A stretch of 64,000 nt of DNA from Aminiphilus circumscriptus DSM 16581 (lineage in GTDB: Bacteria; Synergistota; Synergistia; Synergistales; Aminiphilaceae): contig NZ_JAFY01000002.1 in the NCBI RefSeq assembly GCF_000526375.1, forward strand, positions 124,001-188,000. Direction: 5' to 3'. Made by a program: the position numbers and the translations under genes. Under the pieces are notes generated by a model. That model did not search any database. It worked only from the letters and a program-made list of their open reading frames with translations, and was not told the origin of the DNA. Shown one piece after another: positions 3,013-18,625 of this stretch (its first letter is position 1; each line of letters begins with the position of its first letter).

Positions 3013-3786
3013 GACGCTTTCACTCCGGAATATCCGCTTCGTCCCTGCGGAGCGACACGGCGGGAAGCGCGTTTTTTCCGGAGAGCCCGCTGTCCTGCGA
3101 TAGGTCTCATGCTTGTCCCTCCCGGAGCGTCGTCTCCTCCGGGAAGTCGCCTCCACATGGTTCGGAGGAACTCCCGGAATTCTTCCATTCCATTCTTTGA
3201 TTATGGCACAGCGCTCAGGGAACCGCAAAATTTCCCGAACCGCCCCCATCCGGGTCGCGGAAGGGCATGTCGTGGAGCGCACCACGGTATGGCAGAAACG
3301 GAAAGGCATGCCCCCTCCACCACGACACGGGACCATCCTGGGAGAGTCCTTTTGGTTGCGGGAAAAGCGTCGGATGACGCAGGAACGAAGATGTGACGCA
3401 GAAGATGTGACGTATAGACGTATATAGGAAGACAAGCTTGTCTGACGAAAGATGTCGACGTCTTGTCCGGTTCGTATGCGTTTGCCGCCGGGGTGGGTCG
3501 GTTCTTCATCTCGCCGACGGGTCGGTTTTTGATGGTGCTTGACTGCGACGACTCGCAAATCCAGGGGCGATATCTTTTGGAAGCTCTGAATAAAGACCTT
3601 TCGCTTTCCCTTGACTCGGGTCGCATCAGGCTCTGCGAGGCGCTCTGCGGGGCTGACGCAGCCTTATTCAGAGATTCCTTTTCAGAAACATGCCCCTTTT
3701 CCGGAGGAAGCATGATATGATGAGAATGGCATTAGTCTTCCGAGCCCTGTCGCCTCGGGAAAAATCTCCGCCTCCAAGAGGCGGAT
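3013..3786. other. 774-bp gene-free region with palindromes and repeat copy 1
   Basis: No convincing gene. It separates the leftward helicase from the rightward GGDEF gene, so promoters for both are expected here. Visible structure: the direct repeat GAAGATGTGACG at 3387-3398 and 3401-3412 (14-bp period), a perfect 14-bp palindrome AGACAAGCTTGTCT at 3430-3443, a near-palindrome around 3449-3464, and family-1 repeat copy 1 at 3579-3678. An open frame at 3463-3720 runs through the repeat and is not credible as a gene. Confidence 0.6.
3579..3678 (+). repeat. family-1 palindromic-ended repeat, copy 1
   Basis: 100-bp element. Ends are inverted repeats (GGAAGCTCTGAATAA on the left, TTATTCAGAGATTCC on the right; 14 of 15 pair). 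Inside is a conserved hairpin with a GCTC-TGCG-GGGC core, extended by TGCG/CGCA and AGGC/GCCT pairs. Short TTTT tracts flank both ends. Copies 2 (7242-7342) and 3 (34823-34922) share most of their bases. It lies 109 bp upstream of the PAS-GGDEF-HD-GYP gene and points toward it. Confidence 0.85.
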
Positions 3787-6555
3787 GTGCCCACTAAACG
3801 CTGGAGGAACATGGGACTTCGACGACGCCTCGCTCTCGCTCTCGGCAGCATGTGCATCCTGATCTTCGCCGGACTAGGCCTCCTCTTCGGCGGCCTTTCC
3901 CGGGAGCGTCCCCGTGCCGTTCCGGAAGCACCCCACGAAGGCGTCACCCGACGACCCGTCCTTCCCGATCTTTTCGAGGAAATCGGGAAGGTGCTGCGTT
4001 CTCCCGAGAGAGGCATCCTTCCGAAAATCCCCCTTTCCCCATCCATCCCATCGCCGCTCTCCACCCAAGCACCTCCTCCGGAGACGCCCCCGGTTCGCCC
4101 CTTCTTCCCGGCCTTCCTCGCCGCCGGACTCGTGACCGCCCTCCTCGCCTATCTTCTCGTGCACCGCCTCGTCCTTGCCCGTCTCCTCCGCCTTACGGAG
4201 GAGCTGCGGTGCATCAGCGAAACGGGCGAGCAGGGACGGCGCGTCACCGTGAAGGGAAAGGACCAGCTCGCCATGTTGGCGAACTCCGTGAACGATCTCA
4301 TGGACGCCCTGGAAACGTCCATGATCCGGGAGCGGGAACATGCAACACGCCTGCAGGCACTGACCAACAACATCCCCGGCGCGGTGTACCGCAGCCGCAA
4401 CGACGCCGCATGGACAAAGCTCTATCTGAGCGGACACTTTCAGGACATCACCGGCTACGCTCCCGAGGAATTCCTCGGTGTGAACGGGCGGGGCTTCGCG
4501 GAGATCATTCACCCCGACGATCTGGAGAAGGTGCGCGCCGGCGTGGCCGAGAGCAGCCGAAAGGGACTTCCCTTCACGCTGGAGTACCGCATCGTCCGCC
4601 CCGACGGCAGCGTGCGTTGGATCTCCGACCGGGGGCGGGTCGTACAGGACGAACTGACGGAAAAAACCTGGCTGGACGGGGTGCTTCTGGAGGAAACGGA
4701 GCGACGGCGCGTCCTGGAGGCCCTCGGCGAGTCCGAGGCCAGACACAGGGCCATCTTCGAGAACGCGGGAAGCGCCATGATCCTCACCGACGAGGACGGG
4801 CAGATCGTCATGGCCAACGAGGAGTTCTGCCGTCTCACGGGCTACTCCAGGGAAGAGGTGGAACATCGCCTCTTCTGGACAGCCTTCGTTCCCCCCGAAG
4901 AGCTGCCCCAAGTCCTGGAGATGACCTCCCGGCGGCAGAACGCACCGGAAACCGTTCCCCGGCGCTATGAGACGCGCCTGACGGACAGGACGGGAAGACA
5001 CCTGGACGTGATCGTCTGCGCCGATCTCATTCCCGGTTCTCGGCAACAGGTGGCCTCTTTCCTGGACATCACGGAGATCCGAACCGTCCAGAGCGCCCTC
5101 GAGGCAAGCGAACGCCGCTTCCGTGAATTCGCCGAATCTCTTCCCCAGGTGGTCTTCGAGATAGACCTGGAGGGAACTGTCCTCTTCGTCAACAAGAACG
5201 CCGGAGTCACCCTCGGCTATTCGCCGGAGGAACTCCGGAGCGGGTTCAACGCCCTTTCCATCATCGCCCCCGAGGACAGAGAACGTGCCCGGAACCGCAT
5301 GGAGGAACGCCTCCGTGGCGACGACAACCCCGCCCACGGAGAATACACCGGACTCCGCCGGGACGGCTCGCGCTTTCCCCTGGCGGTCTATCTCCGCCCG
5401 ATCCTCGTCGAAGGCCGCCCCCAGGGCTTCCGAGGACTTCTCGTGGACATGACCCACCAGAAGGAGCTGGAGGAACGGCTCCGCTTCTACAGCCTCCACG
5501 ATCCGCTCACGGGACTCTACAACCGTACCTTCTTCGACGAGGAACTGCGTCGCCTCAGCGCCGGACGGGACGATCCCGTGGGAATCGTGATCTGCGACCT
5601 GGACGGGCTCAAATTCCTCAACGACACCATGGGACATGCCGTGGGCGACCGCATTCTCACCGAGACCGCGCACATTCTCCGAAGGGCTTTCCGCAAAAAC
5701 GACGTGCTGGCCCGCATCGGCGGAGACGAATTCGCCGCCCTGCTCCCCCGCTGCGACGGCAACGCGCTGGCCCGCATCGTGGAGACAATCTTCCGGGAGG
5801 TGGAGCGCCACAACGAATCCACTCCGGCCCTTCCTCTGTCCATTTCCGTGGGACACGCCTCGGGAAATGCCGGAGAGGTCCGCATCGAGGCGCTCTTCGC
5901 CGCCGCGGACGACAACATGTACCGGGCCAAGAACGACCGCCGGGAGGCATCCCGCCATTTCCTTCTGGAACGCCTGCGGAGAGCGCTCGACCTCCGGGAA
6001 TTCAGCGACGGGGAGCATTTGCGGCGTCTCGAACGCCACCTCCTCTCCCTGGCGGAGCCCCTCGGCATCCCCAGGGAGGCCCGGCAGCTTCTGCATTCGC
6101 TCGCGCACTGGCACGACATCGGCATGGTCACCGTGGACGAGTCCATCGTGCTCCGCCCGGGCCCCCTCACGCCGGAAGAGTGGAAGGAAATCCGCCGCCA
6201 CCCCGAAACAGGGGCGCGCATCGTCGCCTCCTTCCAGGATCTGGCGGCCCTTGCGCCGTGGATCCTGGCCCACCACGAGCGGTGGGACGGGGCGGGATAT
6301 CCCCTTGGTCTCAAGGGCGAGGAGATCCCCCTGGAGAGCCGCATGCTCGCCCTTGTCCACGCCTACGACGCCATGACATCCCCCCGGCCCTGGCGCCCGG
6401 CCCGAAGTCCCGAGGAAGCCCGGGCCGAACTCCGACGGTGCGCGGGAACCCAGTTCGATCCCAACATGGTGGAACTGTTCCTCGCCCTGCCCGAGGATTC
6501 CGAGGGCGAGCGTCACATCTCCGCCGACGTCTCTCGGGTGAACGCTTCCTCCTGA
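3787..6555 (+). CDS. membrane PAS-GGDEF-HD-GYP cyclic-di-GMP protein
   Basis: 922-aa hybrid signalling enzyme. Two membrane helices (about 13-35 and 107-127) enclose a short Pro-rich periplasmic loop. Then come a HAMP-like linker (128-185), three PAS domains (about 188-305, 312-435, 440-560), a GGDEF domain and an HD-GYP domain. The diguanylate cyclase motif is an intact GGDEF at 645-649, with an RxxD inhibitory site (RKND) five residues before it. The phosphodiesterase has H776-D777, HHE at 829-831 and GYP at 837-839. Both synthesis and hydrolysis of c-di-GMP therefore look possible, probably switched by PAS ligands. GTG at 3787 has AGAGG about 5 nt upstream; ATG at 3811 is an alternative. 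Family-1 repeat copy 1 lies just upstream. Confidence 0.92.
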   Translation: MPTKRWRNMGLRRRLALALGSMCILIFAGLGLLFGGLSRERPRAVPEAPHEGVTRRPVLPDLFEEIGKVLRSPERGILPKIPLSPSIPSPLSTQAPPPETPPVRPFFPAFLAAGLVTALLAYLLVHRLVLARLLRLTEELRCISETGEQGRRVTVKGKDQLAMLANSVNDLMDALETSMIREREHATRLQALTNNIPGAVYRSRNDAAWTKLYLSGHFQDITGYAPEEFLGVNGRGFAEIIHPDDLEKVRAGVAESSRKGLPFTLEYRIVRPDGSVRWISDRGRVVQDELTEKTWLDGVLLEETERRRVLEALGESEARHRAIFENAGSAMILTDEDGQIVMANEEFCRLTGYSREEVEHRLFWTAFVPPEELPQVLEMTSRRQNAPETVPRRYETRLTDRTGRHLDVIVCADLIPGSRQQVASFLDITEIRTVQSALEASERRFREFAESLPQVVFEIDLEGTVLFVNKNAGVTLGYSPEELRSGFNALSIIAPEDRERARNRMEERLRGDDNPAHGEYTGLRRDGSRFPLAVYLRPILVEGRPQGFRGLLVDMTHQKELEERLRFYSLHDPLTGLYNRTFFDEELRRLSAGRDDPVGIVICDLDGLKFLNDTMGHAVGDRILTETAHILRRAFRKNDVLARIGGDEFAALLPRCDGNALARIVETIFREVERHNESTPALPLSISVGHASGNAGEVRIEALFAAADDNMYRAKNDRREASRHFLLERLRRALDLREFSDGEHLRRLERHLLSLAEPLGIPREARQLLHSLAHWHDIGMVTVDESIVLRPGPLTPEEWKEIRRHPETGARIVASFQDLAALAPWILAHHERWDGAGYPLGLKGEEIPLESRMLALVHAYDAMTSPRPWRPARSPEEARAELRRCAGTQFDPNMVELFLALPEDSEGERHISADVSRVNASS

Positions 6556-6830
6556 GCGAAGGTGAGGCTGCGGCACCGGCACAGCGCTTTCGGCCGGCTT
6601 TGACTCCTGAAGCAAGCTCCCTGGAACCCCGTTACGGGTATTCTTTCAACGAAAAGGCTCCTTGTGCCCGTCGAGGAGAAACGCCCGTCGCGAAACACGT
6701 TGCTTCGAGCACGAGCACAGAGCGGAGGGAAAGAGGGAAATAAAAATACCGAGCTTCTCCGAAGGATTCGGAAGAGCCCGGTAAAGAGGCGAAAACAGGG
6801 ACGGCGCGGGCGAAAAATGCTCCGGAGAGA

Positions 6831-7223
6831 TCACTCCCGGGCGACGGCGAGTTTGTCGAGGAGATCTCTTTCCATGAAGGGTTTGGTGAGAAAGCCCCGA
6901 GGCGCCAGTGCCTTGGCCCGGGCGAGCGTTTCCTGATCCGTGTGGGCCGTGAGAAAAATGACGGACACTTCTCCGTTGCCCTGCATGAGCCGAGCCGCCT
7001 CGATCCCTCCCAGATCCCCCTTGAGGGAGATGTCCATGAGCACCAGGTCGGGTTGCAGTTCCTTGGCTCGACGCACCGCGTCCTCCCCGGAGAAGACGAT
7101 GTCCACGACGCGATATCCCGCCCGCTCCAAACAGGCCTGGAGATCCAGGGCAGTGAGCACCTCATCCTCAACGACGAGCACCCTTGGCGGAGACGCTTCA
7201 CGCCGTTCTTCCCGCAAGTCCAT
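6831..7223 (-). CDS. stand-alone receiver-domain response regulator
   Basis: 130-aa single-domain response regulator without an output domain. It has the acidic pair in LVVEDE, the phosphorylatable Asp in LVLMDISL, the Thr of FLTAHTD and the Lys of FLTKPF. Such proteins act by protein-protein contact or as phosphate relays. The ATG at 7223 has AGGAGG 7 nt upstream; the longer frame starts inside a repeat and is rejected. Family-1 repeat copy 2 abuts its ribosome-binding site. No histidine kinase is visible nearby; the converging PAS-GGDEF-HD-GYP gene is the nearest signalling partner but is no kinase. Confidence 0.88.
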   Translation of the reverse strand: MDLREERREASPPRVLVVEDEVLTALDLQACLERAGYRVVDIVFSGEDAVRRAKELQPDLVLMDISLKGDLGGIEAARLMQGNGEVSVIFLTAHTDQETLARAKALAPRGFLTKPFMERDLLDKLAVARE

Positions 7224-7241
7224 CGAAAAGTCCTCCTCTTT

Positions 7242-7342
7242 GGAAATCTCTGAATAAGGCTGCGTCAGCCCCGAAGGGCGCCTCGCAGAGCCTGATGCGA
7301 CCCGAGTCAAGGGAAAGCGAAAGGTCTTTATTCAGGGCTTCC
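7242..7342 (-). repeat. family-1 palindromic-ended repeat, copy 2
   Basis: 101-bp copy, inverted with respect to copy 1. Ends GGAAATCTCTGAATAA and TTATTCAGGGCTTCC; the internal hairpin core reads GCCC-TTCG-GGGC on the minus strand. It ends 19 bp before the start codon of the receiver gene, so it is transcribed in that gene's leader if the promoter lies upstream. TTT tracts flank both sides. Confidence 0.85.
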
Positions 7343-7425
7343 TTTGTTTTTTCGCGCCGTGTCACCGAACATGCCTCCGGGTCAACAATTTCCGACGCGT
7401 TCCATTCTACGCGAGGGGCAGGGAA

Positions 7426-7455
7426 ATGACCAGACGAGGCGTTTTTGGGTATAAT
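7426..7455 (+). promoter_or_regulatory. sigma-70-type promoter of the phospho-signalling operon
   Basis: ATGACC (7426-7431), 18 bp, TATAAT (7450-7455). A start near 7462 would leave an 80-nt leader before the AAGGAGG and ATG at 7543. It lies between repeat copy 2 and the VWA-FHA gene, which supports the shorter start of that gene. Confidence 0.6.
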
Positions 7456-7542
7456 CGAAACAGCGTATTTCGGACCCGTCTCCTCGCTGAGGGAAACGCC
7501 GTTCCGGAAAGCCGTGCACGCCACGAAGGAGGAAGGCACTCC

Positions 7543-9495
7543 ATGAGACAGGGACTCCTCTGGTTCGAATGGCTCAAAAGAAAGGAACCACTCCACCTCA
7601 CTCTGTGGGCGCTTCTCCTGTGTGTTTTCCTTACGGCATCGTTTTGTGCCGACGCCCGGCCCACCGCTGCCGACGATCTCCGCTTCTTTCGGGCAAGCCA
7701 GGTCGTCTCGGAATATCCCCGAATTCGAATTTTCCTCACACTCCCCCGGGAAAGCGCAACGTCCGGGAAAATTTCCCCGGAAACACTCCAGGCGCGCCTG
7801 GGCGACGCGGTTCTTCCGGTCCGTTCGGTGCGCCCCTTCTCCAGAGAGGAAGACGGCGTCGCCTACATCTTTCTCGTGGACGTCTCCAAGTCCCTTCGGG
7901 AAGCCCAACTGGCGGACATGCGCATCGCTCTTTCCGCCTGGGTGGACGCCATGGGCCCGAAGGATCGGGCCATGATAATCACCTTCGGCGAACGCGTCCA
8001 CCTTCTCCGGGACTTCGACGGAAACTCCGAGGCCCTTCGGGCGGCGGTGAGGACGCTCCGCCCCACGGACATGCTCACCGAACTCCACGGCGGCCTCGCC
8101 CGGGCGCTGGACATGGGCAAACGCCTCGACCCGGGACTTCCGTCCCGAAAGGTCATCGTAGTCCTCTCCGACGGCAAGAACGAGATGCTTGGGGGCATCA
8201 CCCGGGCGGAGGTGTTGCGCCGCATGGAGGAAGGCGCTCCTCCCATCTTCGCCCTCGGCTATTTCGCCCCTCCTCTGGACGAGGAGAAACGGGAGCACCT
8301 GCGTCTTCTGGGAGAGCTGGCGACATCCTCCGGTGGGGCCTATTTCCAGCCCGACGGAACACCCGTCGAGACCATCTTCACCGCCATGCGGAGCGCCATC
8401 GACGACACCCTCGTGGTGGATCTCGACGCGGGAGCCATCTCCCCCGACGGATCACTGAAGCGTCTCTTTCTCTCCCTGAAAACCGAGGATGCCACCCTCA
8501 CCTACACGGCCCCGCTGCGCCTCCTTCCTTCGGAAGTGCGCCCCGCCTCCGCCTCCGGAGACTCCTCGGCGGAACAGACCCTCTCTGCAAACAGCGCCTC
8601 CGGTCTCACTCCGCCCTCAGAAACGCCGGAAAGCGCGAAAGAAACGACGCACACGCCCGAGACATCCCCGGCAGGAACCGCTCCGGCGGAGAAGGCCCAG
8701 GAAACTGCCGCGACTCCCGAGGACACCCTCCGGGGCGGAGCCCCTTCGGACACTGCCGTCGGCGTCGGCGCCGCCGCTCCGGAAGCACAACGTTCTCCGG
8801 AAACCGGAGCGGCTCCGACGGCCCACGCTCCCGGAGCGACGAAGGAAGAGGCGCCCCCCGCGTCGGAAAAGACCCGAACGCCAAGTCCCTCCTCCACAAA
8901 GACGGGCGGTGCCGCGCCGGAACCGACGCCCGGGACGGCTGCCACCGGATCCGGAACCTCCGGGGAAACATCCGAGGCAAAACCCGCCTCGCCGAGGCTG
9001 ACGCCTCTGCTCGCCATTCTTCTCGGCGGCATCGCGCTCATCGCGATCACGACGCTCCTCCTGCTCCCCCGGGAACAGCGGAGGAAGGGAACGGAGACCG
9101 GGTCAGGAACCTCGCGCAAGGAACACCGAAGCATGCGGCTCCGTATGGAGATCTCCCGGTCCGGCAAGGTTCTCGGCGCCTACGCCGCGGACATCACCGA
9201 GCGGATCGTGCTGGGCCGGGGTTCCGAGTGCGACGTGCGCCTCTCCGGAGACGAGACGGTGTCGCATCGTCACTGCGAACTCAGCCTTGCAGGAGGAATC
9301 CTCGCCGTGCGGGACCTCGGCTCCACAAACGGAACACTTCTCGACGGCACACCCGTTCCGGGTGACCGCGCCATCCCCGTCACCGACGGCGCGCGCCTTC
9401 TGCTGGGAAACACGACGGTGACGCTCTTTCCCGGAGCAACCTCCGGAGACCCCTCCGGAGAGCGCCGCAACACCTCGGAGCGTGCGCTCCCATGA
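7543..9495 (+). CDS. membrane VWA-FHA protein 1
   Basis: 650-aa protein. An N-terminal hydrophobic segment (about 20-34) looks like a signal peptide or anchor. A VWA domain follows with an intact MIDAS DVSKS (113-117), so it can bind a divalent cation and a protein ligand. Residues 335-485 are a long Ala/Pro/Thr/Glu linker, then comes a membrane helix (488-508) and a C-terminal FHA domain (about 555-630) with GRGSECDVRLS, SHRHCE and GSTNGT. Topology is therefore VWA outside and phosphothreonine-binding FHA in the cytoplasm. ATG 7543 has AAGGAGG 10 nt upstream. First gene of a six-gene operon; its end overlaps the next start by 4 bp. VWA-FHA 2 downstream is a paralogue with the same architecture. 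Confidence 0.9.
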   Translation: MRQGLLWFEWLKRKEPLHLTLWALLLCVFLTASFCADARPTAADDLRFFRASQVVSEYPRIRIFLTLPRESATSGKISPETLQARLGDAVLPVRSVRPFSREEDGVAYIFLVDVSKSLREAQLADMRIALSAWVDAMGPKDRAMIITFGERVHLLRDFDGNSEALRAAVRTLRPTDMLTELHGGLARALDMGKRLDPGLPSRKVIVVLSDGKNEMLGGITRAEVLRRMEEGAPPIFALGYFAPPLDEEKREHLRLLGELATSSGGAYFQPDGTPVETIFTAMRSAIDDTLVVDLDAGAISPDGSLKRLFLSLKTEDATLTYTAPLRLLPSEVRPASASGDSSAEQTLSANSASGLTPPSETPESAKETTHTPETSPAGTAPAEKAQETAATPEDTLRGGAPSDTAVGVGAAAPEAQRSPETGAAPTAHAPGATKEEAPPASEKTRTPSPSSTKTGGAAPEPTPGTAATGSGTSGETSEAKPASPRLTPLLAILLGGIALIAITTLLLLPREQRRKGTETGSGTSRKEHRSMRLRMEISRSGKVLGAYAADITERIVLGRGSECDVRLSGDETVSHRHCELSLAGGILAVRDLGSTNGTLLDGTPVPGDRAIPVTDGARLLLGNTTVTLFPGATSGDPSGERRNTSERALP

Positions 9496-10457
9496 CGATC
9501 CGCCCGGACATGCGCGGCCCAAACATGTGCCCCCCCGCCCCGGAAGTGGAAACGGCTCCGGTGATTCTTCCGGGCAACGCCCAGGACCAGGGCAAACGCC
9601 GGGAACAGCAGGACGCCTTCACCATCTCGGACCCGGAACACACGGTCTTTCTGGCCCACGCGGGTCTTCTCGCAGTGGTCGCCGACGGAATGGGGGGCAT
9701 GAAGTGCGGCGGCGACGCAAGTCTCCTCGCCGCGGACACCATGCTCGAAGCCTATGCGGTGAAACGCCCGGAGGAACCCGTGGAGGAGGCCCTCCTCCGT
9801 TCCCTGCGCAGGGCAAACCGCGCCGTTCTGGAGATGGCCTGCCGGAACGGCGTGGCGGGCGACTCCGGAACGACCCTCGTCGCCGCGGCAGTCCTCGGCA
9901 ACCGCCTCTGGTGGATCTCCGCAGGCGACAGCCGGCTCTACCTGGCCCGCAAGGGAGAACTGCTCCGGCTCACCGAGGATCACGTCTACGCGACGGAACT
10001 GGACCGCTCGGTCCTCCTCGGCCGCATCTCCCCCGAGGAGGCGCTCTTTCACCCCGAGCGCGAGGCACTGACGAGCTTTCTCGGCCTGGAACCCCTTCCC
10101 AAAGTGGACCGCAACCGGAACCCTCTTCGCCTTGAAGCGGGAGACCGGCTCCTCCTCTGCAGCGACGGGCTCTACAAATTTCTTCCTCCGGAAGAGACGG
10201 CGGCGATTCTTTGCGACGGGGAGCGGCGCCATCCCCAGGCGCAGGCGGAGCGCCTCGTGGAGGCGACGCTGCGCAAGGACGCTCCCGGCCAGGACAACAT
10301 CACCGTGGTGGTTCTCGGCGTGGAACGTCCCGAAGCGCCCAGGACATCCGGAAACGGAGGGCTCTCCTCCCTATGGGCCGAACTGGAGCGCGGCTTCGCT
10401 TCTCTGACGGAACGGGCACGGGGCGTCCTCGCCCTCGAACCGGGAGAAAAGCCGTGA
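9492..10457 (+). CDS. PP2C-family protein phosphatase 1
   Basis: 321-aa cytoplasmic PPM/PP2C phosphatase. Visible motifs: QGKRREQQDAF near the N-terminus (the RxxNxD-like first metal site), VVADGMGGM (metal-binding Asp65), GDSRLYL, LCSDGLYKFL and GQDNITVVVLG. It should remove phosphate from Ser/Thr in an Mn/Mg-dependent way, presumably from substrates of the kinase at the end of the operon. The ATG overlaps the previous stop codon (ATGA), and its own stop overlaps the next start. No regulatory domain or membrane segment is present. Confidence 0.9.
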   Translation: MTIRPDMRGPNMCPPAPEVETAPVILPGNAQDQGKRREQQDAFTISDPEHTVFLAHAGLLAVVADGMGGMKCGGDASLLAADTMLEAYAVKRPEEPVEEALLRSLRRANRAVLEMACRNGVAGDSGTTLVAAAVLGNRLWWISAGDSRLYLARKGELLRLTEDHVYATELDRSVLLGRISPEEALFHPEREALTSFLGLEPLPKVDRNRNPLRLEAGDRLLLCSDGLYKFLPPEETAAILCDGERRHPQAQAERLVEATLRKDAPGQDNITVVVLGVERPEAPRTSGNGGLSSLWAELERGFASLTERARGVLALEPGEKP

Positions 10458-11353
10458 CGTTTTCCGCTTTCCCCGAAGAGGATTGGCTGCGCCGTTTTAC
10501 CCTCTCCAAAGGCAGACGTCCGGGGCATAATGAGGATGCTTCGGGGGAGTTGTATTCCTCCCGAGGGCTTCTCGCGGCACTCGCGGACGGCCTGGGAGGC
10601 CACGCGGGGGGAGAGATCGCCTCCCGCCTTGCCGTGGAGACCGCCCTCGCCGCCTGGCGGCGCCGCGAGGAGGCTCCGGACGCGGCAGATCGGGATGACG
10701 CGGAATGCCCCGGTTCGCCCGGCCACGGCTCCCTGTGGATAGGGCATACGCTGGAGCGGTGCCTTCAGGAAGCTCACGAGGCACTGCTGCACCGAACCCG
10801 GCAGGAGGGACTTCCGCCGCTTCTGACCACCCTGGCCCTCCTCTGGATCGGCGCAAACGGTGTCATGGGCTGGTGCTCCCTGGGCGACACCCGGGTGCAC
10901 CTCTTCCGCGGAGGAGCCCTCGAAATCCGCACCCGCGACCACTCTCTGGTGCAGGCCCTTGTGGAGAGCGGACGTGTGCCTCTCCGGAACGCACGGCGGC
11001 ATCCCGAGCGAAACGTGCTCACCGCCGCGCTGGGAGATCCGAATGTGGAAAACCTCTCCCCGGAGATCTTCTGCGGAGAGGTGAAGCGCGGAGACGCCTT
11101 CCTTCTCTGCACGGACGGCTTCTGGGAGTGGCTTGCCGAGGTGGAGATGCTGGCGGACCTCCTCGCCACGGAGGATCCCGCCGCGTGGATTTTCCGGATG
11201 GAACTGCGCCTCTACGGACATTTGCTCCGGGAAACGGAGCGGAACGGACAGAAGGGAAAACTGCTCGACGACTATTCCGCCGTGGCGGTGCTGGTCGGTG
11301 CCGACACCGCCGCGAACGACACGGACGACAGGAGGGAAGACCCGTGGGATTGA
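10454..11353 (+). CDS. PP2C-family protein phosphatase 2
   Basis: Second PPM/PP2C phosphatase, 299 aa, beginning with GTG that overlaps the preceding stop. Motifs: GHNEDAS (Asp28), ALADGLGGHAGGE (Asp45), LGDTRVHL, LLCTDGFWEWL and a final LDDYSAVAVL, where the usual DN is DD. It is clearly divergent from phosphatase 1, so the pair probably act on different substrates or respond to different signals. An insertion at about residues 75-95 is rich in Asp/Pro. It overlaps the FHA gene downstream by 10 bp. Activity is likely because the metal-binding Asp residues are kept. Confidence 0.88.
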   Translation: MTFSAFPEEDWLRRFTLSKGRRPGHNEDASGELYSSRGLLAALADGLGGHAGGEIASRLAVETALAAWRRREEAPDAADRDDAECPGSPGHGSLWIGHTLERCLQEAHEALLHRTRQEGLPPLLTTLALLWIGANGVMGWCSLGDTRVHLFRGGALEIRTRDHSLVQALVESGRVPLRNARRHPERNVLTAALGDPNVENLSPEIFCGEVKRGDAFLLCTDGFWEWLAEVEMLADLLATEDPAAWIFRMELRLYGHLLRETERNGQKGKLLDDYSAVAVLVGADTAANDTDDRREDPWD

Positions 11354-11934
11354 TCCGTTGCGAAAAGGGACACTACTACGACGAACAGAAGCACAGCTCC
11401 TGCCCCTATTGCGGCGTCAAGGAACTGGAGGAGGAAATCTCCCGTTTCACCCCCCTCGAGACCAACGGTGACGCACCCGAGGACGACGAGGGAAAAACCG
11501 TGCGCCTCTCCAGACCTTCCGGAGGCCCCGAGGGGTTTGCGCTGGGCGGCGGCAGAGAAGGCGAGACCGTGGCGTACCTGCGCTCCCGAACCGGAATGGA
11601 CCCCGTCACGGGGTGGCTCGTCTGCGTGGAGGGACCGGAGAAGGGGCGGGACTACCGCATCCGGAGCGAACGAAACACCATCGGCCGGAGCGACCAGATG
11701 GACATCTGCATCCGCGGGGACGAGACCATCTCCCGGACAAACCACGCCTTCATCGTCTTCGATCCCCGGAAGAACATCTTCCGCGTCCAGGCCGGAGAGG
11801 GGCGGGGACTGACCTACCGGAACGGCGAGGAAGTCATCCTCTCGGAAAAACTCGAGCCCTACGACGTGATCGAGGTGGGGCGGACGCGGCTTCTCTTCGT
11901 GCCGCTCTGCGGGGAGCGCTTCTCATGGGAATGA
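11344..11934 (+). CDS. FHA-domain protein with N-terminal Cys/His motif
   Basis: 196-aa soluble protein. The N-terminus has Cys6, His10 and the pair Cys20/Cys23 (CPYC), consistent with a small zinc-binding ribbon. A disordered acidic stretch (about 35-75) follows, then an FHA domain (about 95-190) with NTIGRSDQMDICI and the SRTNHAF segment. FHA domains bind phosphothreonine, so this is a reader of kinase output. GTG at 11344 has AGGAGG about 8 nt upstream and overlaps the phosphatase gene by 10 bp. Unlike the two VWA-FHA proteins it has no membrane segment and could be a cytoplasmic adaptor. Confidence 0.85.
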   Translation: MGLIRCEKGHYYDEQKHSSCPYCGVKELEEEISRFTPLETNGDAPEDDEGKTVRLSRPSGGPEGFALGGGREGETVAYLRSRTGMDPVTGWLVCVEGPEKGRDYRIRSERNTIGRSDQMDICIRGDETISRTNHAFIVFDPRKNIFRVQAGEGRGLTYRNGEEVILSEKLEPYDVIEVGRTRLLFVPLCGERFSWE

Positions 11935-13649
11935 CATCGAGACGCCCCCAGAAGTCCGCCTCCGAAAGAACCGATGCTTCCGGAACGTTCCGCCGGGGAA
12001 CGCCGCCCCCCATCGCCGGAAGAACCCTGCCGCTCCCGCTCCTCCTTCTGCTCTTCGTACCGGGCGTGCTGCTTGCTCTTTTGACCTGGAGTCCCGGTGC
12101 TTCCGCACAGGACGCACCGACGGAGCCGACCCGGTTCCGCCTCGTGGGAAGCCGCATCGCCCCGCCCACGACGCCGCAGGAAGTCCTGCGGGTGCTCGCC
12201 TACGTGGAACTCCTCGACGAAAACGAGCGCCCCGTCAAGGGCGTCTCCCCGGACAGCGCGGCCTGCACCCTCGGCGCGACGGTGCTCGACAATCCCCGCT
12301 TCACCCCGCTCGCCGCCGAGGAGGGAACGGCGGTGGTCTTTCTCGTGGACGTCTCCAAGTCCCTCAAGCAGAACGAGTTCTCCCGCATCCGGGACGCGCT
12401 CGCCGCCTGGGCGGACTCCCTCGGCGAGGCCGACCGGGGAGCGGTGATGCTCTTCGGCGAACGGGTTCGCCTGGTGCAGGACTTCACCGCCGACAAAGCG
12501 GCCCTTGCCGCCGCCATCAAGGAACTGGCCCTCACGGACAACCGCACGGAACTTCACGCGGGCATCGCCGAGGGGCTTCGCCTCGCCGCCCGCGGCGATG
12601 AGGCGCTTCCGCCGCGGCGCGTGGTCGTGGTCGTCTCCGACGGCATCGAGGACGCGCCGGGCGGCACGTCCCGGGACGAGGTGCTCGCCTCTCTGCGGGA
12701 ACATCCCATCCCCGTCTACGCCGTGGGCTTCGCCCTGCCACCCCTCACGAACGCGAAGAGGGACGGGCTCGCCGTTCTGGGAGAGTTCGCCCGCACCTCC
12801 GGCGGAGCCCTCACCACCGTGGAGAAGCCCGATGCGTTTCAGGGCGCCTTCGAGACGCTCCGGGAGCGGATCAACAGCGTCTATCTCCTCGCCGCCGACG
12901 CGGGGGCGATCGTCCCCGACGGAAAGACGCACCGCCTGCAGGTGACGCTCCGAGTGGGGAGCCGCACCTTCACGGACGGCACGGACCTTCGGGTCCTTCC
13001 CCTTCCGGGCCTCCTCGCCGCCGGAGCGTCCCCTGACCTGGAGGCCGCCGCGGTCACCGCGCCGGAAAGCACCACCGCCGTAACGGGAGCACCGAAGACA
13101 ACCTCCCCTTCACCCCAGGCCGCGGAAACGCCCACACCCTCGCCGGGCCGGAACCTTCCCCTTCTCGCCCTTGGGGCCGGCGTGGCCCTGCTGGTGCTGA
13201 TGGCGCTCTTCCGAAACGGCAAACGCACCCCGCGGGAGAAAGAAACACCCCCCGCGCCGGAAGAACCCGCGGCGGAAAGGACGGGCGCCGCACCGCGCAT
13301 CGTCGCCGGAGAGGGATTCTTCCTGCGCCTCACCGTCCTCAAGGGAGCCGACGTATCGCGCCACTACGACGCGGTGGTGACGGACCGCCTTTCCCTGGGG
13401 CGCTCCTCCAAGGGAAACGGCATGGTCCTCAAAGGAGACATGGGCATCTCGGGAACGCACTGCGAGTTCTTTCTGGAAAAAGGGCGCCTTTTCGTCCGTG
13501 ACCTGGGCTCCACCAACGGCACCTACGTGAACGGCGTGGCCATCGTGGGCCCCTGCCCACTTTCGGACCAGGACAGACTGCTTCTGGGCAGCACGGAGCT
13601 TCGGGTGCACCTTCCCGCATCCGCGTCCAGAGAAGACCGGAAGAGCTGA
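11925..13649 (+). CDS. membrane VWA-FHA protein 2
   Basis: 574-aa paralogue of the first protein of the operon. A long hydrophobic segment (about 36-54, with ASAQ after it) looks like a signal peptide or anchor. The VWA domain has an intact MIDAS DVSKS (142-146), followed by a short Pro/Thr linker, a membrane helix (about 400-420) and a C-terminal FHA domain with LSLGRSS, SGTHCE and GSTNGTYVNG. The interdomain linker is far shorter than in VWA-FHA 1. ATG 11925 overlaps the upstream gene by 10 bp. Two related extracytoplasmic VWA sensors with cytoplasmic FHA heads suggest a pair that senses something in the envelope and docks phosphorylated partners. Confidence 0.9.
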   Translation: MGMTSRRPQKSASERTDASGTFRRGTPPPIAGRTLPLPLLLLLFVPGVLLALLTWSPGASAQDAPTEPTRFRLVGSRIAPPTTPQEVLRVLAYVELLDENERPVKGVSPDSAACTLGATVLDNPRFTPLAAEEGTAVVFLVDVSKSLKQNEFSRIRDALAAWADSLGEADRGAVMLFGERVRLVQDFTADKAALAAAIKELALTDNRTELHAGIAEGLRLAARGDEALPPRRVVVVVSDGIEDAPGGTSRDEVLASLREHPIPVYAVGFALPPLTNAKRDGLAVLGEFARTSGGALTTVEKPDAFQGAFETLRERINSVYLLAADAGAIVPDGKTHRLQVTLRVGSRTFTDGTDLRVLPLPGLLAAGASPDLEAAAVTAPESTTAVTGAPKTTSPSPQAAETPTPSPGRNLPLLALGAGVALLVLMALFRNGKRTPREKETPPAPEEPAAERTGAAPRIVAGEGFFLRLTVLKGADVSRHYDAVVTDRLSLGRSSKGNGMVLKGDMGISGTHCEFFLEKGRLFVRDLGSTNGTYVNGVAIVGPCPLSDQDRLLLGSTELRVHLPASASREDRKS

Positions 13650-13724
13650 CCCCTTTTCCTTTCGTCGGGTTCCACCTCCGCGAGGTTCGCACCTTCGCGG
13701 AGCACTGTCTGAGGAGGCGATTCC

Positions 13725-16538
13725 GTGAACGGAGGCAGACATCGAGAGGGCGCACCGGCGGTGACCCGCACCTCCGCCGCCCGGGGGCACCGGGACGAAC
13801 CGGTCTCTCGCCAGATCAGCGTGCGCCCCGCCCGGGAACGCGCCGAGGAGCTGTGCCCCTTCTGCCTCCAGGAGCGCACCTCCGCATCCGGCCCCTGCCC
13901 CGCCTGCGGCGAGGGCGGCGAAATCCGACGCACCAGCCCGCTGCACCTGCCCCCGGGGACGATCCTCCTCGACAAATATCTCGTGGGAAAGGTCCTCGGA
14001 CACGGCGGTTTCAGCATCACCTACCTCGCCCTCGACCTCTCCCTGGACGTGCGCTGCTGCCTCAAGGAGTATTTCCCCGCCAACCTCGTGACCCGCAACG
14101 CCGGACAGACCCTCTCGGTGGAGGTCTTCCGGGAGGAACGCGGCTCCGGAGGCGACCCGAGGGAGATCTACAACGAGGGGCTGCGCCGCTTTCTCGACGA
14201 GGCTCAGATCCTCGCACGCTTCGAGAACCACCCGGGTATCGTCTCCGTGCGGGATTTCTTCGAGGCCAACGGAACGGCCTACATGGTGACGAGCTTCTTC
14301 GAGGGAATCACCTTCAAACAGTACCTGGAGCAGCGGGGCGGCTCCATCTCCTTCGACGCGACCCTCAAGATTCTCATGCCCGTGCTGGACTCCCTCCGGG
14401 AGGTGCACCGCGCCGGATTGCTCCATCGGGACGTGAGCCCCGAGAACATCTACATCACCGCCTCGGGGCAGGTGAAACTTCTCGATTTCGGCGCCGCCCG
14501 CTCCCTCGCCGGGGAGGGGCACAGCCTCTCCGTGGTGGTGAAGCCCGGCTACGCGCCGGAGGAACAGTACCGCACCCGGGGACATCAGGGACCCTGGACG
14601 GACGTGTACGGCGCGGCGGCGACCTTCTACCGCGCTCTCACGGGAAAAGTTCCCCAGGAGGCGCTGGAACGCCTCTCCGGGGACGACCTGCGCGCCCCCT
14701 CGGCACTCGGGGCGGAACTCCCCGAAAAGGCGGAACTCGCCCTCATAAAGGCCCTGGCCGTGAGAGCGGAGGACCGTTTCCAGAACATCGAGGCATTCCA
14801 AAAGGCCCTCCTCGCCGCTCAGGGCGCACCAACGAAACGACAGGCGCTCCGACTGCGCAAACGTCGTCTCGCCATCGGCGCTGGAGCGGCGCTCTTTCTG
14901 CTCCTTTTGGGCTTCGGAGGCTGGTACCACTGGGCGAATCAGCCGGAACAGCTCTTCCGCCGGGGCGAGCGTCTCACCGCCTCCGGAAAGTACGCCCAGG
15001 CACTGGCGCTTCTCCAAAAAGCCCAGGACCGGGAGGGAGGGGCTCCCTGGGGAACGCTCCATCTCCTCATGGGACACTGCCTCCTCGAACTGCAGCGCCC
15101 TGCCGAGGCGGAGGAAGCCCTGTCCCGGGCAGTGCTTCGAGACCCCCTCTCCCGCCAGGCCTGGCAGCTCCTCGGTGATGCCCGCGTAGCTCTGGACCGC
15201 CTTGCCGAGGCGCGCAGCGCCTATGCCCGCGCCGCCTCGCTCCCTCCCCAGGACGGCCCCTCCTGGCTTCGGGTGGGCGATCTCGCCCGACGCCTGCACC
15301 AGGACGACGAGGCCGCCGGAGCCTACGAGCGCGCTGTCGCCGTTGATCCCAACCTCGTCGAGGGCTGGATCGCCCTGGGAGATCTCGCGGCCTCCCGCAA
15401 TCGCCCCGCCGAGGCGGAGCGCGCCTTTGGCCGTGCAACGACCCTCGCGCCGGAGCGACACGACCTCTGGAAAGCCCTCGGAGAGGCGCGCCGCAGCCTG
15501 AACGACCTTTCCGGCGCCGCCGACGCCTTCGCCGAAGCAGCGGCACGGGCCGGAAGCGACCCCGCCGAAGCCCTGTTTCTCGGCACAGCCCTGCTGGAAT
15601 TGGACCGCCCCCGGGAGGCAACAGAGATTCTCAACGCGGGCCTCGCAAAGACGCCGCACGACCCGGCCCTGCTCGTTTCCGCCGCGGAAGCGTCCCGGCG
15701 CCTCGGCGACATCGCCGCGGCGGAAACGCACCTGCGAAACGCCGTGGCCGCCGACGGCGCCTCCGCCGACGCGTGGAAAGCCCTGGGACTCCTCCTTCTC
15801 GATGCGAACAGGCCCGACCAGGCCCTCTCCGCTCTGGAGCGGGCCGCCTCGCTCCGCCCCGACGACGTGTCTTTGCGCAAACATCTCGGCATCGCCCTCG
15901 CTCGGACGGGACGCTCCTCCGAGGCGGAGGAGACGCTCCTCCGCGCCGCCGCCGCCGCTCCCGACGACGGAGAGATTCTCCTCGCCCTCGGCGATGTCCG
16001 CCTCGGGGCAGACTCCCCGCGGGACGCCCTCGCCGCCTATCTCGACGCGGCCCGAAAGGACGAACGCCTCGCGGCGAAAGCCCTCGTCGGCCAGGGCAAA
16101 GCCCTTCTCGCTCTGGGACGCACCAACGAGGCCGCGGGAGCCTTCTTCGCCGCCACGGACCGCGACGCGACCTCCGTTCCCGCCTGGCTCGGCCTTGCGG
16201 AAGCCTCCCTCCGGCGCGAGCAGTACCGCCTCGCCGTGGATGCCCTCCGCCGCGCCCTCATCCTGGACCCGAACAACGAAACGGCCTGGCGCAGACTCGG
16301 CCAGGCCTACTTCAGCTGGGGACAGTACGACGGCGCCATCGAAGTCTACAACCGCATCCTCTCCAACGTCTCCGGCGACGAGGCCGCCGAGCTGGAGCAC
16401 TTCAACCTCGCCAAGGCCTACATCCAGATCGGCGACATCTCCTCCGCCTCGCGCATCCTCGACCTGCTGGAGGAACGCTCCTCCACCTACTCGGGCGAAC
16501 TCCGCCGCCTCCTCGAAGGACGCCGCCCGTCGCAGTAG
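13725..16538 (+). CDS. zinc-ribbon Ser/Thr kinase with TM and TPR repeats
   Basis: 937-aa protein ending the operon. A four-Cys zinc ribbon (Cys44, 47, 58, 61) precedes a Hanks-type kinase: Gly loop GHGGFS (92-97), Lys114 in CLKEY, HRD at 234-236, DFG at 254-256, and a Pro-Glu-Glu activation-segment end (YAPEEQY). The catalytic loop reads HRDVSPEN, with Ser where many kinases have Lys, as seen in several bacterial kinases. A membrane helix (about 383-403) follows, then about 530 residues of TPR-type helical repeats that would lie outside. It likely phosphorylates the FHA partners or their ligands. GTG 13725 has AGGAGG upstream. Extracytoplasmic TPRs probably scaffold envelope proteins. Confidence 0.92.
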   Translation: MNGGRHREGAPAVTRTSAARGHRDEPVSRQISVRPARERAEELCPFCLQERTSASGPCPACGEGGEIRRTSPLHLPPGTILLDKYLVGKVLGHGGFSITYLALDLSLDVRCCLKEYFPANLVTRNAGQTLSVEVFREERGSGGDPREIYNEGLRRFLDEAQILARFENHPGIVSVRDFFEANGTAYMVTSFFEGITFKQYLEQRGGSISFDATLKILMPVLDSLREVHRAGLLHRDVSPENIYITASGQVKLLDFGAARSLAGEGHSLSVVVKPGYAPEEQYRTRGHQGPWTDVYGAAATFYRALTGKVPQEALERLSGDDLRAPSALGAELPEKAELALIKALAVRAEDRFQNIEAFQKALLAAQGAPTKRQALRLRKRRLAIGAGAALFLLLLGFGGWYHWANQPEQLFRRGERLTASGKYAQALALLQKAQDREGGAPWGTLHLLMGHCLLELQRPAEAEEALSRAVLRDPLSRQAWQLLGDARVALDRLAEARSAYARAASLPPQDGPSWLRVGDLARRLHQDDEAAGAYERAVAVDPNLVEGWIALGDLAASRNRPAEAERAFGRATTLAPERHDLWKALGEARRSLNDLSGAADAFAEAAARAGSDPAEALFLGTALLELDRPREATEILNAGLAKTPHDPALLVSAAEASRRLGDIAAAETHLRNAVAADGASADAWKALGLLLLDANRPDQALSALERAASLRPDDVSLRKHLGIALARTGRSSEAEETLLRAAAAAPDDGEILLALGDVRLGADSPRDALAAYLDAARKDERLAAKALVGQGKALLALGRTNEAAGAFFAATDRDATSVPAWLGLAEASLRREQYRLAVDALRRALILDPNNETAWRRLGQAYFSWGQYDGAIEVYNRILSNVSGDEAAELEHFNLAKAYIQIGDISSASRILDLLEERSSTYSGELRRLLEGRRPSQ

Positions 16539-16962
16539 AAGCTCAGAAGGGCCACCACCACTTGGAGCATCTCAATCGGAGAGATCTTACCCACCTTTGC
16601 TGGACACTCTGATAAGCAAGCACAACGCCCACCAAAGATGAGCCATGAAAGACAAGACAGCTCAGGAAAAAAGGACACGAACCAGATACCCCGGGGATCC
16701 TGACGCAGCAGAGCACGACTCCGCACAGAAAAAGAAGAAGCAAAAGCACATCTCTCGGCGATCTCACCGCGGCGGTGATCTCATGTGCGAGTTGTGTACG
16801 TCAAGTCTTGTGATACCGAGCGCCGTGTTCGCCCGCAACACACCGAACACAATCTTCCGACCGCATGGCGAAGGCGGATCCAGGCAAACAACGACGCGGC
16901 GCCGGAAGAGGATTCCTTCCGGCGCCGCGTCGTGTTTTCCGTGTGGACAAGGTGGAGCGGGA
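16539..16962. other. 424-bp gene-free region between kinase and ppnP
   Basis: No gene found. It has lower GC than its surroundings, a 13-bp perfect inverted repeat CACCGC-G-GCGGTG at 16765-16777, and a strong terminator at 16891-16933. Reading frames on the minus strand (16487-16767) are Cys/Leu-rich and unlike known proteins. Confidence 0.5.
16891..16933. terminator. 18-bp stem terminator between converging operons
   Basis: Perfect 18-bp inverted repeat (16891-16908 with 16916-16933), beginning ACGACGCGG, with a 7-nt loop and followed on the plus strand by GTTTTCC. It ends transcription from the kinase operon and/or ppnP. Confidence 0.85.
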
Positions 16963-17283
16963 TCAGTCCTTGAAGTAGGTGCAGACGTATTCCGTGGGTT
17001 CGTCGCAGCGGTACTTGAACTTGCTGTTCGCGGGAATGCCGAAGAACTGACCCGGACCGTAGGACTGCCAGTCCTCCCGGCCGGGCAGCACCACCGAGGC
17101 GACTCCGGCGGTCATCTCCATCAGTTCCCGGTCCGCCGTGCCGAACTCGTACTCCCCGGGCAGAATGACGCCCAGGGTCTTCTTGCTTCCGTCGGCAAAG
17201 AGAACGGTGCGGCTCTGCACCTTGCCGTCGAAATAGACGTTTGCCTTGGTCAGGACCGTTACTCCTTCAAACTTCTCGATCAT
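16963..17283 (-). CDS. ppnP: pyrimidine/purine nucleoside phosphorylase PpnP
   Basis: 106-aa cupin of the PpnP (formerly DUF1255/YaiE) family. PpnP splits nucleosides with phosphate to give a base and ribose-1-phosphate, with broad substrate range. Family marks: FDGKVQSRT near the N-terminus, GVILPGEYEF, ASVVLPGREDWQSY, GQFFGIPANSKF and a C-terminal EYVCTYFKD, in the same order and at about the same length as the 94-aa E. coli protein. The start at 17283 has a GGAGGAGG upstream; the longer frame lacks this. It stands alone between terminators and probably has its own promoter at 17404-17432. Confidence 0.88.
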   Translation of the reverse strand: MIEKFEGVTVLTKANVYFDGKVQSRTVLFADGSKKTLGVILPGEYEFGTADRELMEMTAGVASVVLPGREDWQSYGPGQFFGIPANSKFKYRCDEPTEYVCTYFKD

Positions 17284-17403
17284 GGGGAAAAGCCTCCTCC
17301 GGAAGAAATGAATGTGGCGGAACGAGAGAACTTGCGTTTCCTGTCTTGCGGAATCGGTGACGAGCGTCGTTCTTCCCGAGAGTGCGGTCCCGGGGCGCCT
17401 CCA

Positions 17404-17432
17404 AGTATACACTCTACAATGCTCTGATGCCA
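17404..17432 (-). promoter_or_regulatory. possible promoter of ppnP
   Basis: On the minus strand TGGCAT (17427-17432), 17 bp, TATACT (17404-17409). It would give a leader of about 115 nt. The -35 box is weak, the -10 box good. Confidence 0.4.
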
Positions 17433-17454
17433 GAGAACCGATGTCTTTTCGGCC

Positions 17455-17520
17455 TCAGAAAAAACAGCCGGAGGAAGAAGAACGGAAGCCCAAAGCTCCG
17501 TCCTCCTCCCTCCGGCTGTT
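17455..17520 (-). terminator. terminator of the ATC hydrolase-TRAP operon
   Basis: 12-bp perfect stem (17463-17474 with 17509-17520; AACAGCCGGAGG) with a loop that can itself pair, followed on the minus strand by a run of T (TGTTTTTTCTG). Placed 60-120 bp after the dctP stop codon. Confidence 0.85.
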
Positions 17521-17578
17521 CCGTGGGTTATCCTCCTCTTTCCGCGACACCGCGAAAGAGAGGGGGTTTCACTGTTCG

Positions 17579-18625
17579 CTACTCGGCGTAGCCGAGGTTC
17601 TTCGCCTCGTCCTTGTAGCCGAGTTCCCAGAGGACGTTCCGGTAGACCTCAAGGTATTCCTTGCCCTCGGGGATGGCCTCGCACTCGGCGAGAAGGAGCT
17701 TCGTGCCCACTTCGCGGGCCTTCTTCGCGTCTTCAGCACTCCAGCTTGCGACTTCGATGTTCGGATTGGATTTCCACTTCTCCCGGGCCTTGATCTCCGC
17801 CACGTAAATCAGGCTGGCCTGGAAGCGGGCCTTGTCGCGGGCGACGAGGAGAATGTCCTTGAAGTTCTGGGGAAGGGCATCCCACTTGGCGGGGTTCACC
17901 ACGAGGGGGAAGTTCTCGTTCACGCCGGTATGGTAGGCGGGGTCGAGGACGAAGGTGGCGACTTCCTGGAAGCCCATGCGCATGTTCTCATCCCAGTAGG
18001 TCCACTCCGCGGCGTGGATGTTCTTGGTCTGAAAGGCCGTGTAAATTTCCGGAGCGGAGAGGGACACCGTGGAGGCACCGAGTTCTTTGTAGAACTTTGC
18101 GCCGAAGCCGGAGGAGCGGATCTTCTTTCCCTTGATGTCCTCGATGGACTTGAGGGGAACCACGGACATAAGCTGCTCGGGCATGACGCTCTCCATGATG
18201 TGCCCCAGATACTTGATGCCGTACTTCGCGTAGATCTTTTCGAAGAAGGGGAAGAGTTTCTCGTCAAGATAGACCCCTTCGGCGAAGGTGCTGATGGGGC
18301 AGCCCGGTCGGGTGGTGAGGATGAACGCGGGGTCCTTTCCCGTCCAGTAGGCGCTGTAGACCATGGCGGCATCGACGATGCCGTTGGCGACGGCGTCGAA
18401 GGACTCGAACACGGGGAAGAGCACGCCCGCCGCATAGGGCTCGATGACGAACTCACCGCCGGAAAGGGTCTTCACGGTCTCGCAGAAGTCCTCGGCGAGT
18501 TTCTGCTGTTCCGTTCCGGGCATGGCATGGGTGACGAGTCTCCAGGTCACCTTCGCCGCCAGAGCCGCCTGGGCTCCGACGAGGATGAACAGAAACACCA
18601 GAGCAAGGGCAAACATTTTTCTCAT
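17579..18625 (-). CDS. dctP: TRAP transporter solute-binding protein (DctP family)
   Basis: 348-aa periplasmic receptor. The N-terminus MRKMFALALVFLFILVG and an AALAAK site form a signal peptide. The mature part has the DctP fold, with TWRLVTHAMPGTEQQKLAEDF at the first strand, KIRSSGFGAKF near the middle, and an Arg in the conserved position that clamps carboxylates. The frame upstream of 18625 is not credible; ATG 18625 follows an AGGAGG 12 nt away. It lies 171 bp after the large permease gene and is the last gene of the operon. The ligand is unknown; its operon neighbour ATC hydrolase suggests a thiazoline or related sulfur compound, by context only. Confidence 0.88.
   Translation of the reverse strand: MRKMFALALVFLFILVGAQAALAAKVTWRLVTHAMPGTEQQKLAEDFCETVKTLSGGEFVIEPYAAGVLFPVFESFDAVANGIVDAAMVYSAYWTGKDPAFILTTRPGCPISTFAEGVYLDEKLFPFFEKIYAKYGIKYLGHIMESVMPEQLMSVVPLKSIEDIKGKKIRSSGFGAKFYKELGASTVSLSAPEIYTAFQTKNIHAAEWTYWDENMRMGFQEVATFVLDPAYHTGVNENFPLVVNPAKWDALPQNFKDILLVARDKARFQASLIYVAEIKAREKWKSNPNIEVASWSAEDAKKAREVGTKLLLAECEAIPEGKEYLEVYRNVLWELGYKDEAKNLGYAE

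Follow-up and report, generated by a model that had tools for sequence, protein, structure and literature searches.

A six-gene operon of Aminiphilus circumscriptus encodes a putative transmembrane phosphothreonine relay with a conserved zinc-ribbon FHA protein

Introduction

In bacteria, a Ser/Thr kinase usually has many candidate targets, and pinpointing the true one is the bottleneck in its analysis. Several modules that combine such kinases with PP2C phosphatases, FHA domains or VWA domains have been described. In the threonine-phosphorylation pathway of type VI secretion (T6SS; PpkA/PppA/Fha), the VWA domain of PpkA is located C-terminal to the kinase domain and is extracytoplasmic. In the small FHA proteins GarA and OdhI, the switch is an N-terminal phosphothreonine. 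TerY-P pairs a VWA domain of the TerY type with a kinase whose zinc ribbon is C-terminal, and TerY-P-like modules have been reported as anti-phage systems. ArnA and ArnB of Sulfolobus occur together with the kinase ArnC and the phosphatase PP2A. ArnA comprises a zinc ribbon, a flexible linker and an FHA domain; ArnB, which binds ArnA directly, contains a VWA domain inserted in a beta-sandwich and has phosphosites in a C-terminal helical bundle (PMC6509490, PMC12852372).

Results

Organisation of the operon

The window, i.e. the whole analysed stretch of 64,000 nucleotides, corresponds to positions 124,001-188,000 of one contig of the 3.22-Mb genome (7 contigs). A first-pass annotation, made from the letters alone, had proposed a six-gene membrane phospho-signalling operon at positions 7543-16538, and the open reading frames and Pfam domains confirm it. 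The gene order from 5' to 3' is VWA1-FHA, PP2Ca, PP2Cb, FHAz, VWA2-FHA and kinase-TPR. All genes are located on the + strand, and the FHA, VWA, PP2C_2, Pkinase and TPR matches of their products exceed the curated Pfam cut-offs. The features are as follows.

7426..7455, + strand: promoter-like ATGACC-18-TATAAT (consensus scan; a consensus match only)
7526..7532, + strand: Shine-Dalgarno sequence AAGGAGG, 10 nt 5' of the ATG at 7543 (read directly from the sequence)
7543..9495, + strand: VWA1-FHA (Pfam, motifs, hydropathy)
9492..10457, + strand: PP2Ca (Pfam, motifs)
10454..11353, + strand: PP2Cb (Pfam, motifs, sister-locus comparison)
11344..11934, + strand: FHAz (profile, alignments, AF2)
11497..11499, + strand: codon of FHAz Thr52 (KTVRL), predicted phosphoacceptor (alignment)
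11566..11568, + strand: codon of FHAz Thr75 (GETVA), predicted phosphoacceptor in the linker (alignment)
11931..13649, + strand: VWA2-FHA (Pfam, AF2, alignment)
13725..16538, + strand: kinase-TPR (Pfam, structure-profile comparison, motifs)

As annotated, the genes overlap by 4-10 bp (4, 4, 10 and 4 bp) except before the kinase gene, which is preceded by a 75-bp gap. The Shine-Dalgarno sequence and the promoter-like site argue for the ATG at 7543 as the start of the first gene, and a start at 7426 was therefore dropped. The promoter-like site is the sole match on the + strand within 3500-17700; with both strands counted, the scan yielded 4 sites versus 0.6 expected. At 16891-16933, in the space that separates the operon from the convergent TRAP transporter genes, an 18-bp inverted repeat is followed by GTTTTCC and represents a probable terminator. 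The same gene order was found again, with 36-64% identity, in other Synergistota families, and related clusters exist in other phyla. The operon is thus more than a chance arrangement.

Kinase and phosphatases

Pfam matches, motifs and hydropathy bear out the earlier reading of the last gene product as a Hanks-type kinase with a zinc ribbon, a TM helix and extracytoplasmic TPRs. The protein contains an N-terminal C4 zinc ribbon (CxxC..CxxC), the HRD, DFG and APE motifs, a TM helix (381-401) and, according to the predicted topology, about 530 extracytoplasmic residues of TPR. With its catalytic residues in place, the kinase is predicted to be active. The nearest solved structure to its kinase domain is PpkA (E 7.6e-48), followed by PknB (E 1.6e-25). 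Matches to PD-T4-6 models were also observed; these reflect the kinase fold.

A comparison of 57 cassette kinases showed that the inner part is constant, with an N-terminal C4 zinc ribbon in 53 and a TM helix in 54 of them. The outer domain changes: TPR was found in 13 kinases, and Sel1, FGE-sulfatase and MORN in 5 each. Such variety is as expected for exchangeable sensors and suggests that different lineages may sense different signals through the same relay.

Two divergent PP2Cs had been proposed. Two PP2Cs are indeed encoded, but PP2Ca has the complete set of metal-site motifs and a Stp1-like NCBIfam match (E 8e-47, under the cut-off of that model). PP2Cb deviates only in the last metal-site motif, which reads DD instead of DN; it occurs in its own genus and is missing from sister loci. 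Hydropathy, the positive-inside rule and AF2 models gave no TM segment for PP2Ca, PP2Cb and FHAz.

Membrane-anchored VWA-FHA proteins

Three FHA proteins, two of them with an extracytoplasmic MIDAS-containing VWA domain, had been annotated, and Pfam matches, motifs and the predicted topology agree. By hydropathy, the positive-inside rule and AF2, both VWA-FHA proteins possess a single TM helix in addition to a hydrophobic N-terminal segment. VWA1-FHA is predicted to consist of a signal segment, an extracytoplasmic VWA domain, a TM helix at about 482-511 and a cytoplasmic FHA domain; its MIDAS residues are DVSKS, T and SDG, and its phosphothreonine-site motifs are GR, SHRH and STNG. In VWA2-FHA, a signal/TM segment (about 35-52) precedes a beta-sandwich interrupted by the VWA domain (65-355), a stretch that is disordered in the AF2 model, the TM helix (411-429) and the FHA domain (463-560; AF2 and alignment). 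All MIDAS residues are present in both VWA domains. Among 43 VWA-FHA proteins, the MIDAS and the phosphothreonine-site residues of the FHA domain are at least 90% conserved.

A Foldseek search with the AF2 model of VWA2 matched ArnB (8s05) with E 1e-10, at a low whole-chain TM-score. A weak match of VWA2 to TagH was also found. Several sister loci lack the first VWA-FHA gene and PP2Cb, which consequently look like lineage-specific additions. Catalytic, MIDAS and phosphothreonine-binding residues are all present in the operon, and its assignment to membrane phospho-signalling is well supported.

The zinc-ribbon FHA protein FHAz

The N-terminal Cys/His motif noted earlier on the third FHA protein is a zinc ribbon, CxxGHxYD..CPxC. 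FHAz is soluble; the ribbon is followed by a linker that is predicted to be disordered (AF2 pLDDT about 50) and by the FHA domain. In a 61-sequence alignment, the position of Thr52 is occupied by Thr in 90% of the cases. Despite the low pLDDT of the linker, 76 of 76 relatives have Thr at the position of Thr75. The other residues invariant across these 76 sequences are the zinc ligands, P87-V88 and W91, which form the entry to the FHA domain, GR, and S130.

Motifs of the type T-[VIMLQ]-x-hydrophobic occur 59 times in the FHAz linkers outside Thr75, compared to 9.2 +/- 2.9 in shuffled sequences, a comparison in which related sequences count as independent; just 34 of the 76 proteins possess such a motif in addition to Thr75. 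The enrichment is weaker in the linkers of the VWA-FHA proteins (16 versus 3.6 in shuffles), and the linkers of VWA1-FHA and VWA2-FHA of this operon contain no such motif. The pattern in FHAz resembles that expected of a phosphoacceptor array. Alternatively, the invariant Thr75 could be needed for the FHA fold or for another partner.

The FHA domains of the operon are predicted to bind phosphothreonine, as the required residues are in place. For FHAz itself, this binding is less certain than for VWA1-FHA and VWA2-FHA, because the histidine position is shifted (SRTNH in place of SxxH). FHAz rather than the kinase-TPR is the most conserved part of the cassette; it is the hallmark protein and seems to be the hub.

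The phosphothreonine circuit looks closed

A whole-genome profile search yielded one Pkinase, two PP2C_2 and three FHA proteins, where the phosphatase count covers PP2C_2 matches only. All of them are encoded in this operon, and the circuit therefore looks self-contained. Eight carriers of FHAz were inspected, namely the host and seven relatives. Each has one kinase, except for genome G007 with two. All kinase and FHA matches in these genomes, including both G007 kinases, map to the cassette.

Among the Synergistota genomes, a kinase is present in 21 of 21 FHAz carriers and in 69 of 167 non-carriers; further FHA domains are present in 21 of 21 and 33 of 167, respectively. As these genomes are related, the statistical significance of the comparison is overstated. 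Non-carriers can thus have other kinases, whereas the cassette never occurs without one. In the Synergistota genus g5 (e.g. G089:C68:14021-14215), FHA domains were found outside the FHAz cassette in proteins of about 1,500 residues, some of which share a contig with a kinase; these possibly represent a second phosphosignalling system.

Distribution and conservation of the cassette

FHAz occurs in 21 of 188 Synergistota genomes with a patchy distribution; that of Synergistaceae bacterium UBA5560 is 98% identical. A scan with the FHAz alignment, based on one genome per species, detected 296 relatives, and 80 loci were kept. This set was selected on similarity to FHAz, not sampled at random. The phyla with FHAz loci are Synergistota, Bacillota, Pseudomonadota, Thermodesulfobacteriota, Myxococcota, Nitrospirota, Balneolota and Rhodothermota. 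For 42 loci from several phyla, at least 7 kb were available on both sides of FHAz. Within 7 kb of FHAz, a kinase was found at all 42 of these loci, another FHA gene at 41, a PP2C gene at 40 and a VWA gene at 28. Gene order varies among the loci, and the parts list is largely kept.

In the FHAz tree, from which the long-branched G007 sequence was left unplaced, the Synergistota sequences form one group (95/74). A recent transfer into Synergistota was rejected, because shared descent with patchy loss fits this single group at least as well. Plasmid-borne spread was likewise discarded, as just 14 plasmid matches were obtained, all weak and partial.

Some cassettes have additional components. In a Desulfotomaculaceae bin (L053), an 886-aa protein with three FHA domains is encoded upstream of the cassette. 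Some cassettes of Pseudomonadota and deltaproteobacteria encode a MotA/ExbB channel protein, the small TM protein NREINIFNLSMLDVISGALGAFLIIMIVLFPYY, which has weak similarity to ZorB, or both. These loci are L071 (9156-9962, 14674-15450), L054, L062, L067, L070, L074, L077, L087, L096 and L099. The proteins might link the phospho-cassette with an ion-driven motor.

Flanking genes and alternative assignments

The first-pass annotation had named as a counter-case an operon that invariably belongs, in relatives, to an established secretion or cell-division locus, and this was not observed. Different loci have unrelated flanking genes; a comparison of the flanks across loci identified neither fixed partner genes nor an output gene fixed beside the cassette, and the family survey revealed no recurring secretion family, T6SS included, and no recurring nucleic-acid-processing family (ter families were not queried by name). 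VipB/TssC of type VI secretion was not found in the eight carrier genomes.

These data bear on the idea that the operon is the T6SS phosphorylation pathway, or its remnant, and controls a secretion machine. The PpkA-like kinase domain, the common logic of kinase, PP2C, FHA and extracytoplasmic VWA, and the weak TagH match of VWA2 point in this direction. However, the missing VipB and the flanks largely rule out membership in T6SS; moreover, the VWA domain is fused to FHA rather than to the kinase, and many carriers are Bacillota. We regard this assignment as very unlikely.

That the operon is a stress or anti-phage defence module of the TerY-P type is improbable as well. Such a module would agree with the shared trio of VWA, PP2C and zinc-ribbon kinase, the reported anti-phage role of TerY-P-like modules, the ZorA/ZorB-like proteins of some cassettes and the PD-T4-6 matches, although the latter are explained by the kinase fold. 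The layout is unlike that of TerY-P, and a defence island was rejected since few PADLOC defence families recur in the flanks. The neighbours in the window are a helicase-like gene, a PAS-GGDEF-HD-GYP gene, a TRAP transporter and Tex.

The PAS-GGDEF-HD-GYP gene upstream of the operon, a GGDEF/EAL gene downstream of it in another family, and the extracytoplasmic location of the TPR and MIDAS VWA domains are consistent with control of an envelope or surface structure, for example in adhesion or a c-di-GMP-linked lifestyle. However, the PAS-GGDEF-HD-GYP gene (3787-6555) is separated from the operon by a gap and a divergent gene for a single-domain response regulator (130 aa; 6831-7223, - strand), and the neighbours differ at other loci. 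We consider this reading unlikely; the envelope-stress or surface-assembly role proposed earlier is a guess.

Discussion

The operon probably encodes a self-contained phosphothreonine relay that spans the cytoplasmic membrane. The extracytoplasmic TPR part of the zinc-ribbon kinase would probably sense a signal or dock a partner. The active kinase would then phosphorylate linker threonines of FHAz, namely Thr75 and Thr52, the latter a site of the TVxL type. The resulting phosphothreonines could serve as docking sites for the cytoplasmic FHA domains of both VWA-TM-FHA proteins and/or for the FHA domain of FHAz itself. The state of FHAz would thereby be tied to two membrane proteins whose outer MIDAS VWA domain may bind something outside the cell, and the PP2C phosphatases would reset the circuit. 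We infer the acceptor threonines, their pairing with FHA sites, the ligands of the TPR and VWA domains, and the output. In carriers, the kinase may phosphorylate other targets too.

FHAz might also act as an ArnA-like regulator of gene expression, with a zinc ribbon that contacts a partner or nucleic acid and a phosphorylation that frees or captures the protein. The layout common to ArnA and FHAz and the match between the sandwich-VWA fold of VWA2 and ArnB make this conceivable, and it is as much an output of the relay as a rival to it. On the other hand, the FHAz profile finds GarA and not ArnA among the solved structures, and with the VWA domain outside the cell, a zinc-ribbon contact like that of ArnA and ArnB is not possible in the same form. 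A regulatory role of this kind is therefore somewhat doubtful.

More tentatively than the relay itself, we propose that such cassettes form a widespread class of bacterial transmembrane phosphothreonine circuits, sister to the T6SS kinase pathway and independent of secretion. FHAz would be the phosphoswitch, the VWA-TM-FHA proteins would be the receptors, and the outer domain of the kinase would be swapped among lineages. One operon comprises one kinase, two PP2C_2 phosphatases and three FHA readers, and the predicted substrate residue is invariant across phyla; a complete phosphothreonine circuit could thus be tested with a handful of proteins. Gene clusters in Lachnospiraceae, bacilli, methanotrophs, purple sulfur bacteria and others would thereby gain a name and a hypothesis on their function.

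Comparison with known systems

No name for this gene set was found in the open-access literature (PMC), in line with the first-pass remark that it could not be matched to a named system; an earlier description in subscription papers is possible. The nearest relatives are PpkA by kinase sequence and ArnA/ArnB by layout and fold.

With PpkA/PppA/Fha, the cassette shares a PpkA-type kinase, a PP2C, an FHA protein and the overall logic. It differs in that VWA is located on the FHA proteins and the kinase bears TPR instead of VWA, and in having the zinc-ribbon FHAz, a zinc-ribbon kinase with exchangeable outer domains, and no VipB. The likeness to TerY-P type triads proposed at first pass stands for the trio of VWA, PP2C and zinc-ribbon Ser/Thr kinase. 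It fails for the defining layout, since the zinc ribbon of the kinase is N-terminal (53/57), the VWA domain is extracytoplasmic on a TM-FHA protein, and FHA proteins are added. In contrast to the kinase of the PASTA kinase/PrpC pair, the kinase contains no PASTA repeats (Pfam).

The FHA structures nearest to FHAz are those of GarA and OdhI. All are small FHA proteins, and the predicted N-terminal phosphothreonines of FHAz recall the GarA/OdhI switch; however, FHAz lacks the ETTS motif (KTVRL and GETVA instead) and differs by its zinc ribbon and cassette context. FHAz and ArnA have the order zinc ribbon, linker and FHA in common, and VWA2 and ArnB (8s05) have a VWA domain within a beta-sandwich. 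In the cassette, VWA lies outside the cell and is fused to FHA via a TM helix, and the phosphosites are predicted on FHAz. As the signal segment and TM helix place VWA outside in the predicted topology, the ArnA-ArnB zinc-ribbon contact is not directly copied here. The cassette is thus a variant among phosphothreonine signalling modules that stands outside the T6SS pathway, ArnA/ArnB and TerY-P.
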